Source: Sphingobacteriaceae bacterium
Lineage (GTDB): Bacteria; Bacteroidota; Bacteroidia; Sphingobacteriales; Sphingobacteriaceae
Assembly (NCBI GenBank): GCA_947460875.1
Contig: CANHGR010000004.1
Span: forward strand, 124,001-188,000
Reading direction: 5' to 3'
Length of the DNA: 64,000 bases
Of this stretch, positions 10,446-41,782 are shown piece after piece. Under the pieces are notes generated by a model. It ran no database searches. It was not told where the DNA came from and saw only the letters and a list, made by a program, of their open reading frames with translations. The position numbers were made by a program, and so were the translations under genes. The stretch's first letter is position 1; each line of letters starts with the position of its first letter.

Positions 10446-11279
10446 ATGAAACTAACAAGAAGAAAATTTTTAAATCTTGGCATAAAAGGGGTTGTGCTGA
10501 TAAGTGCGGGAAACAGTATCCAAACCTTTGCTAACAGCAGTAAATTACAGGGCAAAAACCTAAACATTGCGCTACGTTTCGCGATAGCTTCTGATGGCCA
10601 TTACGGACAAATGGGCATCCAATATGAATCTTTCCATCTAGATACGATCAATTGGATTAATGCTGAAAAAGACACTAGTACCCTTGATTTTACATTTATT
10701 AACGGTGATTTGGTCCATGATGACCCCAAATGGGTGCCTGAACTCAGAGCACAATTCAATAAATTAAAAACTCCTTGGTATGTCAGCCGAGGAAATCATG
10801 ACAAGATGGACCCTGCTTCTTGGGAGAAGGAATGGGGAATGCCTTTAAATTATTCCTTCATAAAAAATGATACGGCTTTTTTAGTGCTTGATACTTCAAA
10901 TGAACAAGGACAGTATGTTTGTCCAAATCCGGCATGGGCAGAGCAAGAACTGAAAAAACTAAGTGCTTACAAAAACCTGTTTGTGTTCATGCATATCACC
11001 CCCTTTAAATGGACACAGAACGGCATTGCTTGTCCGCAAATAACAGAATTATTTGAAAAACAAGCAAACCTGAAAGCAATCTTCCATGGCCACGACCATG
11101 ATCAGGATTCATTTAAAGAAATGAATGGAAAGTATTATTTCTTCGATTCTCATATTGCAGGTAACTGGGGTACACCCTACCGTGGATATAGGATCGTAGA
11201 ATTGTCTGATACAGGTGATATTCTAACATACCAGGTCAATCCGACTGAGGGGAAGAAGATGAATACGACTAGCATTTAG
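10446..11279 (+). CDS. Exported calcineurin-like metallophosphoesterase
   Basis: This 277-residue protein contains the metallophosphoesterase motif series: ASDGHYG (variant of DxH), NGDLVHD (GDxxx), RGNHD (GNHD), MHITPF and HGHDHD (GHxH). These bind a two-metal centre that hydrolyses phosphoesters. The N-terminus TRRKFL followed by a hydrophobic stretch is a twin-arginine export signal, so it is likely folded in the cytoplasm and exported. It is transcribed divergently from the ThuA gene, with a 128-base gap. The physiological phosphoester is unknown. Confidence 0.88.
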   Translation: MKLTRRKFLNLGIKGVVLISAGNSIQTFANSSKLQGKNLNIALRFAIASDGHYGQMGIQYESFHLDTINWINAEKDTSTLDFTFINGDLVHDDPKWVPELRAQFNKLKTPWYVSRGNHDKMDPASWEKEWGMPLNYSFIKNDTAFLVLDTSNEQGQYVCPNPAWAEQELKKLSAYKNLFVFMHITPFKWTQNGIACPQITELFEKQANLKAIFHGHDHDQDSFKEMNGKYYFFDSHIAGNWGTPYRGYRIVELSDTGDILTYQVNPTEGKKMNTTSI

Positions 11280-11638
11280 CCCAGACTATTGTCCTCCCTT
11301 TTCACCAGTAATACTTCATGATCATTAAGCAGGATATAGCCATACTCATAGCAGAAGTAGTACGTTCCGCCTTTCTGGGTTTGGTAGATGTGAGTGTGAT
11401 AAGTCAAGTCGAAGCCCTGTTTTAACAATCTGTCACGATTGATTTTTGTTTTGCCGCCAGGATTCAATTTTTGAAGGATATCGCGATTCTTTTTAAGAAC
11501 TTGATTGACCTGACGCATGTAACTGCTATCCTCACTTTTAAGGCGGTTATTATAATTACTACGACACTGATCGTCGCAAAATTTCTTATCAGACCGGCCT
11601 TTTACTATTTCGCCGCAATCTAAGCATACGCGTTCCAT
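11276..11638 (-). CDS. Hypothetical protein with N-terminal zinc-ribbon-like motif
   Basis: This 120-residue protein starts CLDCGEIVKGRSDKKFC and then DDQCRSNYNN, giving CxxC...CxxxC, a probable single zinc site. The middle is a basic helix (QVNQVLKKNRDILQKL), and the C-terminal part is a small hydrophobic beta-rich segment with several Tyr (YYFCYEYGYILLN). Similar small proteins are frequent in Bacteroidota without an assigned role. DNA or RNA binding is possible from the zinc motif and charge, but it is inference. Its stop overlaps the end of the converging phosphoesterase gene by four bases. Confidence 0.7.
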   Translation of the reverse strand: MERVCLDCGEIVKGRSDKKFCDDQCRSNYNNRLKSEDSSYMRQVNQVLKKNRDILQKLNPGGKTKINRDRLLKQGFDLTYHTHIYQTQKGGTYYFCYEYGYILLNDHEVLLVKREDNSLG

Positions 11639-11809
11639 ATATTTTTATGCGATTAAACAATAAATATAACCATTATACGTGTATAACCGTTTATATACGG
11701 ATGTAAATGTTTAACATCCGACTAGGCTTTCTGACTACCCTCACCTTTGTTCTGTCGATGGCCAAAGAGATGCCATTGTTCGTTAAACATCAGATAAATT
11801 TTTAGAAAA

Positions 11810-35625: not shown

Positions 35626-35628
35626 GGT

Positions 35629-36802
35629 CTGCGCTCAAACTAATAACAGAAACGCTGTTTGGTCGTTTCACTTTATATAGTTCATTCTCTTTTTAAGAGC
35701 AATGGAACTATTCAATTCTCATCCAAGTAGCTCTCAGTAATTTTAGCATATTTTTAGTTTAAGTATGCTTTCCTTGTTTACGTACCTTAGAATGTAAATA
35801 GGCTATTCGGGCTTGTTGCTCCGAATTGTGTACGATGTACGCTTGGACTCGCTTTTCTACTTAGAACCCCAATTTTGAAACGCTAAAGTATCGTTCGTAC
35901 TTTAATTTCTGTGTTGTTCCTTTTTAGTATCTCGGCTTTGATCCATTTCAAGTTCTATATTCAATTTTATGATTCTTTTTTTGCACGGATATTTACAAGA
36001 TACATGCAGACTAATTTCATTAACAGGTTTGAATTAAATTCTTAAGTTCTATCATGCAATTGATTTCCTGCCCATAAAGAACCAACAATTTTCTAGTATA
36101 CATTTGAGAAAAAACTATCATCACGATATGCATTTATCTTCTACCATTATTTCCAACAAATTGATTTTAAATTATTTAAAATACCTGGCAGATTTCTTGA
36201 GTTTAGCTAGGCTTTAAAAACACGATCTCATGATAAAGAATATCTCACCGAAAAGCAAGATTCAATTTCTATTACACCCGACAGTACCCCAGAAAGCACA
36301 GCGGCAACTAAAGTAGATGGAATCATAGTAGCAAGTACGATGGCATCTTCTAGACGCATGACATTATCTTTTGATCGAATACGATATCCACAGTCGTAAC
36401 AGCAAGCAATGGCATTACAACGACCACCTATCGGTTTTAGACCCCCACCCGCGACAACGTTAATCTAACAACTGGCATCCCGTCAGCTTCGGCCTATAGC
36501 TTTCGTAAATTAAGTAGTACGTCTTCAAATAGCGCGATACAAGTTCGAAGAGTAGACAATATTGCGAAGAATTTTTCTCTTATTAAAAGAAGACCCGGCA
36601 CAGAAGAACAACCTGGAAGCGGCATTAGTTTAATCTTACCTACGTAGTCAAAAAAGTCAATGAGCCCTAATTTATTACTAGAAAATAAGGAAGGCGTAGC
36701 TACGGCAGTCGCAATTCTATTTTCAATGTCCTCTACTAAATAAGCACAGGCATATTACTTGCCTGACAATTTCTTAAACGACCTCCTTGTAGAATGCAAC
36801 AA
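35629..36802. other. Gene desert of about 1.2 kb
   Basis: No open frame in this stretch has a plausible start and family. The first half is AT-rich with nothing recognised. The second half (about 36400-36690) resembles a decayed surface-protein gene on the plus strand, described separately. Minus-strand frames around 36230-36440 (MRLEDAIVLATMIPSTLVAAVLSG is hydrophobic) are also open, but they may be mirror effects. Confidence 0.5.
36400..36690 (+). pseudogene. Probable decayed surface protein with AYSLRKL-type domain
   Basis: The plus strand reads VVTASNGITTTTYRF, a TAG, then TRDNVNLTTGIPSASAYSFRKLSS and NSAIQVRRVDN. The AYSxRKL ... AIxVRRxxDN order is characteristic of a domain often seen in Bacteroidota and phage surface proteins (arabinofuranosidase/lectin-like). 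After NFSLIK the frame changes; another frame reads NLEAALV, a stop, then SYLRSQ, similar to the next conserved block. At least two stops and a frameshift are needed to align, so this is a remnant. The match is from memory of the family, not a search. Confidence 0.45.
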
Positions 36803-38059
36803 TCATCCCAGCCTTGCGATCAGCTCGGCACTCAACTTTAATCCATCTTGCAGCCTGTGGAAAAAAAATGCTTTGGTTTCTTCAAAATGAGCTTTATAGC
36901 CCTCCATATCTCCATAGCCTATTATTGAAGCCCATTCTCTTACTGCAGAGTGAAATTCCAGATCATCTCCTCGTATTGTTTTATCGAACAGAGCAGTTTT
37001 AATCGACTCCTCCAATAAGGCCTCATTTTTAAATAAGTATTCTGCAATTCCGAGGCGTAGCTTAAAAGGCGGCGTCTGGCAAATCATGTTATCATAGGGA
37101 TTCACACCCAAATGGTACCAGGCATCCACCATAGCGAGCAAGCTTAAGTGTGAATTGGCTTTGGGAGTAGTTTCGTGTGAGGAAAGCCGAAAAGTTTTCA
37201 TGATACTTTCATCGAGCATCAACAGTTCCCTGCTTTCATGAAAGACAAAATCGCGAGCTTGATATATCCGCTTACGGAAAGATTTCTCATCTTCCTGAAT
37301 CATCATTTTAAAAAGCTCTGATTCAGACTCGGCATATCTCTTCACCTGCTTTCGCGCATATGGATTCAATATCGCCAGTCCCGCATAAACGTGCGCTTTA
37401 TACCCAAATATTCTCAACGTGGTAAGTATTTTAACATTATCTATCCCACCGTTGTTATAAGAAGCATTATCCCAAGGATAAAAACCTGCGTTTTTCCAAG
37501 CAGTACCCATACTTTCAAAACCCATATGTGTAACCGCCTGCGTGTCGGCAACGATCTGGTCATGAAGGTGAAAATCAGCAATCTCAGCGATATGTGAGCC
37601 TAATGCTGCAAATATTTTAAGTGCTTTCGAGTAGCCCTCGTCCGTTGCCCGATGACGGATCACAATCAAATGCTGACCTTCGGTGGCAAATCCCGGTCCG
37701 TGTAAAGAATGACAGCTCACGATTTGCGTGTCCTCAGAAAGAAACTGTTCGAACGCTGCTATTTCCGGATGCTTTACAGAGGTTTGTCCGCAAACAATTG
37801 CTCCTCTTTTAGTGGCATGTCCAAAAGAAGCTACCACCTCAGCTATCTTCTCGGCTTCTACAGAATAAATGATGAAATCAGCCTGCTCAGAAACATCAAT
37901 TCCGCTTTCAAGTACCTTAATTCCTATAGGTTCTAGCTCCCGGTTCAGCGTTTCAAATCTATCCGGTAGATCACAACCTAGCACCGCGTATCCTGCCTTT
38001 GCGAATGTCTTCGCGTAAAGCTTTCCCATGTCTCCGAGACCTATAATTCCGATTATCAT
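36803..38059 (-). CDS. tyrA: Prephenate dehydrogenase of fungal TYR1 type
   Basis: This 418-residue enzyme is a prephenate dehydrogenase for tyrosine synthesis. It starts with a Rossmann motif (GIIGLGDMGKLYA) and contains IIYSVEAEKIAE, GQTSVKHPEIAAFE, HSLHGPGFATEGQHL, VADTQAVTHMGFESMG, the helical HVYAGLAILNP, NSHLSLLAMVDAWYHLGVNPYDNMIC and DDLEFHSAVREWAS. These blocks, and their order over the full length, resemble the yeast TYR1 enzyme more than E. coli TyrA or the chorismate-mutase fusions. There is no ACT or mutase domain. It is alone, with no aro genes beside it. Confidence 0.87.
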   Translation of the reverse strand: MIIGIIGLGDMGKLYAKTFAKAGYAVLGCDLPDRFETLNRELEPIGIKVLESGIDVSEQADFIIYSVEAEKIAEVVASFGHATKRGAIVCGQTSVKHPEIAAFEQFLSEDTQIVSCHSLHGPGFATEGQHLIVIRHRATDEGYSKALKIFAALGSHIAEIADFHLHDQIVADTQAVTHMGFESMGTAWKNAGFYPWDNASYNNGGIDNVKILTTLRIFGYKAHVYAGLAILNPYARKQVKRYAESESELFKMMIQEDEKSFRKRIYQARDFVFHESRELLMLDESIMKTFRLSSHETTPKANSHLSLLAMVDAWYHLGVNPYDNMICQTPPFKLRLGIAEYLFKNEALLEESIKTALFDKTIRGDDLEFHSAVREWASIIGYGDMEGYKAHFEETKAFFFHRLQDGLKLSAELIARLG

Positions 38060-38254: not shown

Positions 38255-38560
38255 TCAAACTTTGATTTCAACTTCAACTCCACTAGGTAATTCAAGTTTC
38301 ATCAGCGCATCAACAGTCTTTGAATTTGAGCTGTAAATATCCAATAGACGTTTGTAAGAACATAATTGAAACTGCTCACGAGCCTTCTTGTTTACGTGTG
38401 GTGAACGCAAAACTGTAAAAATTTTCTTGTCGGTCGGCAAAGGTATTGGTCCGCTAACCACAGCGCCCGTAGGTTTAACTGTCTTTACGATCTTCTCAAC
38501 TGATTTGTCTACCAAGTTGTAGTCGTAGGATTTTAATTTGATTCTAATTCTCTGGCTCAT
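38255..38560 (-). CDS. rpsJ: 30S ribosomal protein S10
   Basis: This 101-residue S10 shows [45 protein letters not shown] and a C-terminal [11 protein letters not shown]. It sits in the 30S head and also takes part in antitermination as NusE. It ends the str operon after fusA, rather than beginning the S10 operon as in E. coli. Confidence 0.97.
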
Positions 38561-38682: not shown

Positions 38683-40788
38683 TTAGGCATTTTCTTTTTT
38701 ACCTTTCACCTTCGCAATTACTTCTTCTTGTACGTTTTTAGGTGCTTCAGCGTAGTGATCAAACTCCATTGTTGAAGTTGCCCGTCCGGATGTGATTGTA
38801 CGTAACTGAGTTACATAACCAAACATTTCTGAAAGTGGTACCGTTGCTTTAATTACTTGTGAACCTGCACGAGAGTCCATACCTAATAGTTGGCCGCGAC
38901 GGCGGTTCATATCACCGATAACATCACCCATATTTTCTTCAGGAGTAAGAATCTCAATCTTCATGATCGGCTCCATCAATACCGGTTTACATTTTGGCAA
39001 TGCTTCACGGAACGCGGAACGCGCACAAATTTCAAAAGAAAGCGCATCAGAATCGACCGCGTGGAATGAGCCATCGATCAACCGTACTTTCATATCTTGA
39101 AGCGGATAGCCGGCAAGCACACCATTAACCATGGCAGCAGCAAAGCCCTTCTCTACAGATGGAATAAATTCACGAGGGATAGATCCACCAGAGATTTCAT
39201 TCACAAATTGTAAACCTGATTTACCTTCATCGTTTGGTGAAATAATGATTTGAATATCGGCAAACTTACCACGACCACCTGTTTGTTTCTTGTATGTTTC
39301 TCTGTGTTGTGTTGTTCCTGTAATTGCTTCTTTGTATGAAACCTGAGGAGCACCTTGATTTACCTCCACTTTAAACTCACGTTTTAGACGATCCATCAAG
39401 ATGTCAAGGTGGAGCTCACCCATTCCGGAGATAACTGTTTGTCCAGTTTCTTCATCCGTTTTAACGTGGAAAGTAGGATCTTCCTCGGCTAATTTACCAA
39501 GTGCCATACCTAACTTATCCATATCCGCCTGAGTTTTAGGCTCAATTGCCAAACCAATAACCGGCTCAGGGAAGTTCATAGACTCTAACACGATTTGATG
39601 TTTCTCATCGCAAAGAGTATCTCCTGTTTTGATATCCTTAAAACCAACCACCGCAGCAATATCACCTGCTCCAACATTCGGGATAGGGTTTTGCTTGTTA
39701 GCGTGCATTTGGAATATACGTGAGATGCGCTCTTTATTTTCAGACCGCATATTATATACGTATGAACCTGCTTCAAGGTTACCTGAATAAACGCGAATAA
39801 AGCAAAGACGACCAACAAATGGGTCGGTAGCAATTTTAAATGCTAATGCTGCAAATGGCTCTTTTTCAGACGGGAGACGAACAATTTCTGCGCCAGTATC
39901 TGGGTTATGACCCACAATACCTTCAACATCCATTGGTGAAGGAAGTAATTCCATCACATAGTCAAGCATTGTTTGTACGCCCTTATTTTTAAATGATGAA
40001 CCGCAAACCATCGGAACGATCTTCGCATCCAGAACCGCTTTACGCAATGCATCTAAAACTTCGCGTTCTGTAATGGTTTCAGGTGCTTCGAAGAACTTCT
40101 CCATTAAAGTATCATCGTACTCAGCAACAGACTCCAACAATTTTTCTCTCCACTCGGTTGCTTCTTCAATCATATCCGCAGGAATTGGAACTTCTTTGAA
40201 AGTCATTCCTTTATCATGCTCATTCCAAACAATTCCACGGAAGTTGATCAAGTCAACAACACCTTCAAATTTCTCTTCAGAACCGATAGGTAATTGTAAA
40301 GGAACAGCATTGCTGCCTAACATATCTTTAACTTGCTTTACAACTTTCAAGAAATCTGCTCCGGAACGGTCCATCTTATTTACAAAACCGATACGAGCTA
40401 CGCTATAGTTATTAGCAAGACGCCAGTTTGTTTCAGACTGAGGCTCTACACCATCAACTGCAGAAAACAAGAACACTAATCCATCAAGTACACGCAATGA
40501 ACGATTTACTTCAACAGTAAAATCCACGTGACCAGGGGTATCGATAATATTAATGTGATAATTCTGATCTCTGTATTTCCAGTCAACTGTTGTAGCAGCT
40601 GACGTAATAGTGATACCACGCTCCTGTTCTTGCGCCATCCAGTCCATCGTTGCAGCACCTTCGTGCACTTCTCCGATCTTATGGTTAATACCCGCATAAA
40701 AAAGGATACGCTCTGTTGTTGTAGTTTTACCCGCATCAATGTGTGCCGCGATACCGATATTTCTTGTGAATCTTAAATCTCTTGACAT
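38683..40788 (-). CDS. fusA: Elongation factor G
   Basis: This 701-residue GTPase drives ribosomal translocation. The G domain has [13 protein letters not shown] near residue 16, DTPGHVDF and NKMD. Domains II to V follow with [15 protein letters not shown] near the C-terminus. The length is normal for EF-G. It is the third gene of the str operon. A long hairpin lies between rpsG and fusA (40820-40855). Confidence 0.97.
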
Positions 40789-40819
40789 TTTATTTTATGA
40801 TTTCTCTGATTTTTAAATG

Positions 40820-40855
40820 ATTACACCGATCTGTTTATAAAACAATCGGTGTAAT
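40820..40855. repeat. Long inverted repeat between rpsG and fusA
   Basis: ATTACACCGAT (40820-40830) pairs perfectly with ATCGGTGTAAT (40845-40855), and TGTTT pairs with AAACA inside, with one bulged base. On the minus strand it is not followed by a T run, so it is unlikely to be a terminator. It may control fusA translation or processing of the str transcript. The nearby GTGTAATC units also recur at 50570-50590. Confidence 0.6.
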
Positions 40856-40881
40856 TATTTAATCTGTGTAATCTCCTTTTA

Positions 40882-41349
40882 TTAAAACCGGAAGTGAGAG
40901 AACGCTTTATTAGCTTCAGCCATTTTGTGCGTATCTTCTTTCTTTTTCACCGCAGCACCTTCGCCCTTAGACGCAGAAATAATTTCTCCGGCTAATTTTT
41001 CCATCATCGTTTTTTCACCACGTCTGCGTGCATAGCTGATCAGCCATTTCATACCCAAAGCAACTTTACGCTCCGGACGAACTTCTGTTGGTACCTGGAA
41101 GTTAGCTCCACCTACACGACGCGATTTAACTTCTACTGCTGGCATAACATTGTTTAACGCTTTCTTCCAGGCTTCAAGGCCACTTTCACTAGTCTTCTTT
41201 TCAACTAATTCAACGGCATCATAGAATATTGAATAAGCAATAGACTTTTTACCATCGTACATCATATTATTAACAAACCTGGTAACCATTATGTCGTTAA
41301 ACTTTGGATCAGGCAGTAAGATTCTCTTTTTTGGTTTTGACTTTCTCAT
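40882..41349 (-). CDS. rpsG: 30S ribosomal protein S7
   Basis: This 155-residue S7 contains [22 protein letters not shown] and the [19 protein letters not shown] loop, ending [15 protein letters not shown]. It nucleates 30S head assembly. The gene follows rpsL after 19 bases. Confidence 0.97.
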
Positions 41350-41368
41350 GTTGCTTTCCTCCGTTTAA

Positions 41369-41782
41369 TTATTTCTTTTTACCCTTAGCCGGCGCAGCTG
41401 CTGCCTGACCTGGCTTTGGTCTCTTAGTTCCATATTTAGAACGACGTTGGTTACGTCCCGCTACACCCGAAGTATCCAAAGCGCCACGAATAATGTGGTA
41501 ACGAACACCAGGTAAATCTTTAACACGACCACCACGGATTAATACAATTGAGTGCTCTTGCAAATTGTGTCCTTCTCCCGGAATATAAGCATTCACTTCT
41601 TTTCCGTTTGTTAAACGCACACGTGCAACTTTACGCATTGCTGAGTTTGGCTTTTTAGGGGTAGTGGTGTATACACGGGTACACACTCCTCTTCGCTGTG
41701 GACATGAGTCCAACGCTGGTGATTTACTCTTATCAACCAGAGCTACTCTACCTTTTCTAACTAATTGCTGAATAGTAGGCAT
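41369..41782 (-). CDS. rpsL: 30S ribosomal protein S12
   Basis: This 137-residue S12 has [18 protein letters not shown] with Lys at residue 43 and [13 protein letters not shown] with the Lys corresponding to K88, both wild-type for streptomycin response. A short Lys/Ala/Pro tail follows the core. It is the first gene of rpsL-rpsG-fusA-rpsJ and has a consensus promoter upstream. Confidence 0.97.

Follow-up and report, generated by a model that had tools for sequence, protein, structure and literature searches.

A TYR1-type prephenate dehydrogenase gene at a ribosomal operon site, and its likely displacement of the native TyrA, in Sphingobacteriaceae

Across much of the bacterial family Sphingobacteriaceae, an enzyme of the type known from yeast TYR1 stands in for the native TyrA. 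The case analysed here is a gene, named tyrF in the following, in a window of 64,000 nucleotides (the whole stretch of DNA under study) from a Sphingobacteriaceae bacterium, where it occupies positions 36803..38059 on the minus strand and encodes a protein of 418 aa, the sole TyrA of its genome. The enzyme itself is of a known kind; what is unexpected is its distribution across a bacterial family and its position in a ribosomal operon. We consider it likely that a TYR1-type prephenate dehydrogenase was gained from outside and that the native gene pair of an aminotransferase and tyrA was lost.

The reading frame of tyrF extends from an ATG at 38059 to a stop at 36803, and the opposite (plus) strand is riddled with stop codons. 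A search of the source genome (2.21 Mb in 26 contigs, 99% complete) yielded no further TyrA and no phenylalanine hydroxylase; a second match to Pfam PDH_N is ProC-like, as judged by eye and by its score. Because it is the sole recognisable TyrA and phenylalanine hydroxylase is missing, the protein is probably its cell's tyrosine enzyme. A pseudogene or a paralogue beside a normal tyrA is ruled out, as the genome has no second TyrA. In this genome, pheA is followed by a DAHP synthase-chorismate mutase gene, aroA and aroC, and the interval from pheA to the first of these genes contains neither tyrA nor an aminotransferase gene. Foreign base composition was dropped as evidence of transfer: the GC content of tyrF is 0.434 against 0.406 for the window, and its third-position GC (0.406) lies inside the range of its neighbours.

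The activity of yeast TYR1, a prephenate dehydrogenase, is NADP-dependent, and its orthologues are reported from across Dikarya. For this enzyme PMC5681985 cites Mannhaupt 1989. The sequence used for comparison, a provisional version of S. cerevisiae TYR1 with 452 aa rather than a database entry, is the single fungal sequence in the whole analysis. The preliminary description of tyrF had reported a block-by-block likeness to yeast TYR1 over the whole length, and BLASTP against the provisional sequence bore this out with 45% identity and 64% positives over 426 columns (E 5e-133), in an alignment that is full length and collinear and includes the C-terminal third. The blocks it had quoted, HSLHGP, DTQAVTH, HVYAGLAILNP, NSHLSLLA and NPYDNMIC among six, are all present in the protein in the same order, some of them slightly altered in the provisional yeast row (DPYDHMIC versus NPYDNMIC). 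The two proteins also share the C-terminal extension and the active-site His and Arg. They differ in short extra ends at both termini of the yeast protein, which are missing from the bacterial one, in the residue at the specificity position (Asn in the provisional yeast sequence, Tyr in the bacterial protein) and in the setting of the bacterial gene, which sits in or beside ribosomal genes.

The provisional yeast row shares the private residues of the window protein at none of 19 columns, and its agreement with the bacterial majority falls with conservation, from 103 of the 140 invariant columns, through 58 of 98 with conservation of 80% or more, to 29 of 96 (50–80%) and 13 of 81 (below 50%). 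On both counts it acts, at the sequence level, as a true outside homologue and not as an invention derived from the window. Its identity to each of the 25 bacterial rows aligned is 43–48%.

In three samples of Bacteroidota genomes, the full-length form is confined to one family. Among 392 genomes of the phylum, full-length matches (68–100% identity) were found in nine, all of them among the 12 sampled genomes of this family, while 65 other genomes, and second matches within family genomes, reached 21–38% in partial alignments that mostly end at about residue 270–310. When 295 genomes of the class were searched with a profile, eight matched at E 1e-40, each of them a member of the family. Of 60 relatives, 18 have the full-length form; these too belong to the family, and the 23 relatives from elsewhere in the class lack it. 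Six peptide patterns, which are exact and miss distant relatives, matched 214 relatives when run against 84,980 species genomes; the best 80 of these belong, by title, to Sphingobacteriaceae genera or Bacteroidetes MAGs, at 69% identity or more, the nearest loci among them being a Sphingobacteriaceae MAG (84%) and Pedobacter sp. BS3 (79%). No TYR1-type match was found in 72,556 plasmid records, in 50,697 phage records or in viral contigs. Our literature search, which covered few subscription papers, found no published report of a fungal-type prephenate dehydrogenase in bacteria or in these genera, or of its transfer from a fungus to a bacterium, and the accessible parts of PMC3846528, PMC5133447 and PMC13054926 hold nothing on a TYR1-like gene type.

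The window protein passes the gathering threshold of Pfam PDH_N (30.7 bits versus 26.5) and fails that of PDH_C (13.6 bits versus 22). We attribute the latter to the sequence model and not to the fold, because the predicted structure matches TyrA structures up to residue 258–289. The AlphaFold model (pLDDT 89, pTM 0.88) has the fold of the TyrA superfamily, a Rossmann domain plus a helical domain. The N-terminal Rossmann (dinucleotide-binding) domain comprises approximately residues 1–160 (37580..38059, minus strand), starts near GIIGLGDMG, scores above the cut-offs of both PDH_N and NAD_binding_2 and is apparent from the strands and helices of the model. It is followed by the helical TyrA domain at approximately residues 161–284 (37208..37579, minus strand), which is weak in PDH_C and was delimited by its match to the structures of soybean PDH and H. 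influenzae TyrA, and by a C-terminal helical extension, defined from alignments as residues 285–418 (36806..37207, minus strand), which when modelled alone has a pLDDT of 56.5 and thus low confidence. Structure comparison, for which Foldseek was also run, gave Z scores of 20 to 22.6 for TyrA structures: 22.6 for S. meliloti cyclohexadienyl dehydrogenase (273 residues, 3.6 A), 22.1 for soybean PDH (245 residues, 2.3 A) and 20.9 for H. influenzae TyrA (266 residues, 2.8 A). Other Rossmann enzymes likewise reach about 20, mostly across fewer residues, and most of the top TyrA matches stop at about residue 258–289. Soybean PDH1 (5whx, 5t9e) is both the best sequence match and a top-range fold match with a solved structure, covering residues 1–258; its identity in the structural alignment is about 20%, and it stops where the extension of the window protein starts. 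None of the PDB entries searched is a solved structure of the TYR1 type, for which the bacterial members would offer diverse material.

The active site is conserved. His117 (37709..37711, minus strand) and Arg216 (37412..37414, minus strand) are invariant in 25 of 25 rows and align with E. coli TyrA His197 and Arg294, which we take to be the catalytic and the prephenate-binding residue, respectively. All NCBIfam TyrA models score far below their cut-offs, the best reaching 79 bits versus 464 (NF006411) with the window protein. The curated models cover none of the 25 TYR1-like members, a gap in current annotation. In each of these 25 members the ranking is the same, with PRK08655, presumably an archaeal-type TyrA, at the top and the E. 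coli type next. This ranking agrees with clade II of TyrA proteins, in which PMC5681985 joins the fungi with some archaea, with gamma-proteobacteria and with Chloroflexi.

Among the nearest curated bacterial types are E. coli TyrA and the AroQ-TyrA fusions of Bacteroidota, and their active-site residues align, but they carry an N-terminal chorismate mutase domain and have no C-terminal extension; the Bacteroidota fusions are 21–28% identical to the window protein over partial coverage. The ordinary TyrA of Sphingobacteriaceae shares the PDH_N superfamily and the expected reaction. It is, in contrast, approximately 280 aa long, lacks the extension, usually has an aminotransferase gene adjoining and matches PDH_N and PDH_C at E 1e-28 and 1e-25, where the window protein reaches 2.6e-7 and 0.08. 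With 418 aa, and with the paired aminotransferase in none of 156 TYR1-like genomes, the window protein falls outside this class.

As to substrate, the position equated with soybean residue 222, which governs the choice between prephenate and arogenate and was located through alignments whose chains differ by mutation at this residue, is Tyr220 in the window protein (37400..37402, minus strand). It is Tyr in all 25 rows and acidic in none, Asn in the provisional yeast sequence and Gln in E. coli. A non-acidic residue here is tied to prephenate preference in clade II in PMC5681985. Taking this Tyr together with family, fold and active site, we infer from sequence and model that the window protein is a prephenate dehydrogenase. 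That it might instead act as arogenate dehydrogenase or as a cyclohexadienyl dehydrogenase of broad range seems improbable to us. PMC1173090 does trace the specificity of the yeast enzyme to old assays and describes an HMM tool that classed yeast TyrA as arogenate-specific, but the non-acidic Tyr resembles that of clade II, thought to be prephenate-specific (PMC5681985), and the aminotransferase partner of the ordinary tyrA is absent from TYR1-like genomes.

The two TyrA types exclude each other. We searched a single set of 250 Sphingobacteriales genomes, all from one family, for ordinary TyrA (PF02153, E < 1e-26), the TYR1-like protein (E < 1e-150), the class I aminotransferase (E 1e-100) and phenylalanine hydroxylase (PF00351). 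The TYR1-like protein is present in 156 genomes and an ordinary TyrA of about 280 residues in 78; none has both, and 16 have neither. The occurrence of the same gene type in 156 of 250 genomes also rules out a contaminating contig as the source of tyrF. The aminotransferase follows the ordinary type, being present in 75 of the 78 ordinary-TyrA genomes and absent from the TYR1-like genomes (0 of 156) and from those with neither type (0 of 16); its gene directly precedes the ordinary tyrA in three of the four loci read (L150, L152 and L153, not L151). We rejected the idea that the aminotransferase was lost because specificity had changed from arogenate to prephenate: the ordinary TyrA here has Ser, likewise non-acidic, at the equated position, and the published specificity rule applies to other clades.

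No genome among the 250 is without a recognisable tyrosine source. Phenylalanine hydroxylase is encoded in 41 of the 78 ordinary-TyrA genomes, in 130 of the 156 TYR1-like genomes and in all 16 genomes with neither type (Fisher p 0.014 for the 16); p-values are purely descriptive here, because closely related genomes are not independent. In most carriers, the TYR1-like enzyme is therefore not the only possible route to tyrosine. The 16 genomes with neither type, among them G495 and G613 of 1.7–1.8 Mb, all encode phenylalanine hydroxylase, which suggests that they obtain tyrosine from phenylalanine. Such a supply has been proposed for Bacteroidota in the case of Echinicola, according to PMC7311316.

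The carriers share a genomic site. In the window, the order on the minus strand is rpsL, rpsG, fusA, rpsJ and then tyrF. The next gene upstream of tyrF, at a gap of 195 bases, is the one that we take to be rpsJ by similarity and order (38255..38560, minus strand); further upstream lies the rest of the str operon (38683..41782, minus strand), the names fusA, rpsG and rpsL being likewise our assignments. The best 80 of the 214 loci, with flanks of up to 5 kb and some contigs ending sooner, so that neighbour counts are limited, have rplC near tyrF in 61 cases, rpsJ in 27 and a gene that we call X1 in 75. Because the order rpsJ–X1–tyrF–rplC, with or without other genes, was read directly in seven genomes from several genera (G410, G446, G634, G542, G640, G214 and G644), we place tyrF within the S10 ribosomal operon. 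X1 comes after tyrF in one genome (G448) and is missing near tyrF in five of the 80 loci; tyrF lies at other sites in five genomes (G589, G561, G639, G641 and G630). The rplC gene of the window genome lies on a different contig, so that the operon has been broken after tyrF and the window copy no longer stands before rplC.

The site itself varies among genomes without tyrF. In four of 30 genomes examined, rpsJ is directly beside rplC; three of these are early-branching genomes with ordinary TyrA (G531, G549 and G605), and the fourth, G613, has neither type. Six genomes have the order rpsJ–X1–TauE–DUF1634–rplC without tyrF, four with ordinary TyrA (G441, G595, G533 and G611) and two with neither type (G378 and G404). 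Because G080 has X1–tyrF–TauE–DUF1634–rplC, and G407 the same order plus one small frame before rplC, the simplest reading of these six is that tyrF was lost from an occupied site.

X1 is a conserved but divergent gene of about 206 aa at the rpsJ–rplC break (positions 11108–11728 of locus L156). By eye it shows what looks like a signal peptide, together with a single membrane helix and a coiled coil; it has no match in Pfam. In the window it is absent between rpsJ and tyrF. Neither strand of the approximately 1.2 kb behind tyrF (35626–36802) holds a frame that reaches 80 aa, the stretch has no repeats, and a search there for remnants of genes known from relatives gave only matches of 24–57 residues.

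The direction of the exchange was read from a fusA tree of 47 genomes, which is a single-gene tree from a short search and has an outgroup that is not monophyletic. Genera with ordinary TyrA are basal in this tree, and the TYR1-like genomes lie inside a clade of 32 rows (SH-aLRT 95) that also contains ordinary genomes and genomes with neither type. We take ordinary TyrA to be ancestral because the early branches carry it. As the ordinary or TYR1-like label changes at least six times on the tree, a single gain requires several losses and, in some genomes of one genus (g3), an ordinary pair that was either kept or acquired again. In the history that we consider likely, a TYR1-type gene would have been gained from outside by an ancestor of the Pedobacter–Mucilaginibacter part of the family and would have settled between rpsJ and rplC in the S10 ribosomal operon. 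Its product would convert prephenate to 4-hydroxyphenylpyruvate for tyrosine synthesis, and the native aminotransferase–tyrA pair would have been lost in the same lineages, where the enzyme of foreign type is now the only recognisable TyrA.

To place the protein among TyrA types, trees were computed from TYR1-like rows and the one provisional yeast row versus E. coli TyrA, Bacteroidota AroQ-TyrA and ordinary TyrA. The TYR1-like rows and the provisional yeast row form one clade with 100/100 support in both trees, so that the special relation to fungal TYR1 claimed in the preliminary description withstood a comparison with ordinary bacterial TyrA; chance similarity is excluded by this support together with the BLASTP E value (5e-133). 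Its further proposal was a gene transfer between a bacterial and a fungal lineage or an old shared paralogue. The patchy and exclusive distribution and the shared site argue for a gain by the bacterial lineage, while a fungal partner is only plausible; an old shared paralogue is possible at the root, yet leaves the pattern within Sphingobacteriaceae without an explanation. That a fungus is among the leading candidates is due solely to yeast TYR1 being the nearest relative compared outside the family, in a comparison that barely sampled phyla beyond Bacteroidota.

A bacterial origin, in which carriers beyond Bacteroidota and outside our sample gave the type both to Sphingobacteriaceae and to fungi or a fungal ancestor, is in our view a real possibility, if short of a probable one. 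The preference of the TYR1-like proteins for the archaeal-type NCBIfam models (PRK08655) and then for E. coli TyrA points in this direction. So does the composition of clade II in PMC5681985, by which prokaryotic relatives of the fungal type exist, if at some distance. Against it stand the lack of matches among plasmid records, phage records and viral contigs and the scan of 84,980 species genomes, whose best 80 of 214 relatives are all from Sphingobacteriaceae or Bacteroidetes MAGs, although exact patterns miss distant relatives.

Transfer from a fungus, or a close eukaryotic relative, to a bacterial ancestor is possible, and we hold it tentatively. On the fusA tree the ordinary TyrA is basal in the family, the TYR1 type emerges abruptly and at a new position, and the provisional yeast row is 43–48% identical to all bacterial rows, where the rest of the phylum sample reaches at most approximately 38%; yet a single fungal sequence cannot show nesting within fungi, and in both trees the yeast row falls, with weak support, among the bacterial rows. 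About as tentative is the full chain of events, in which a fungus would have given TYR1 to a soil bacterium, the gene would have entered the S10 operon between rpsJ and rplC and made the native pair dispensable, and its product would have become the sole TyrA of most of the Pedobacter–Mucilaginibacter lineage.

The opposite direction, from a Sphingobacteriaceae-like bacterium to fungi, we regard as unlikely. It would account for the place of the provisional yeast row inside the bacterial clade near Pedobacter rows in both trees (88/59 and 86/64) and for the borderline rejection of bacteria-only monophyly under the mixture model (AU p 0.048). However, these support values are weak and the yeast branch is long, bacterial monophyly is retained (p 0.469) under LG+G4 with the most distant outgroup removed, and the fungal gene, should all Dikarya have it, probably predates the bacterial group. 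The probability that is left, like the others loosely held, falls to an ancient shared origin or to eukaryotes other than fungi.

Functional metabolic genes are considered to pass from eukaryotes to bacteria only seldom, and cases in which such a gene took the place of a native one in a core pathway to be rarer still. If the donor was a fungus, the TYR1-like gene would be a eukaryote-to-bacterium replacement of a core enzyme of amino-acid synthesis. Because the densely sampled family includes genomes that retain the native pair, carry the TYR1-like gene or lack both, and because the insertion site is shared, gain, loss and the back-up by phenylalanine hydroxylase are traceable in it.

Two further observations concern the wider setting. 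In much of Sphingobacteriaceae the str/S10 ribosomal operon is split at rpsJ–rplC, with inserts that vary by genus (loci L187–L206, 20 genomes). Other families of Bacteroidota have an E. coli-type chorismate mutase–TyrA fusion (loci L092, L094 and L099), which brings the TyrA types in the phylum to at least three.
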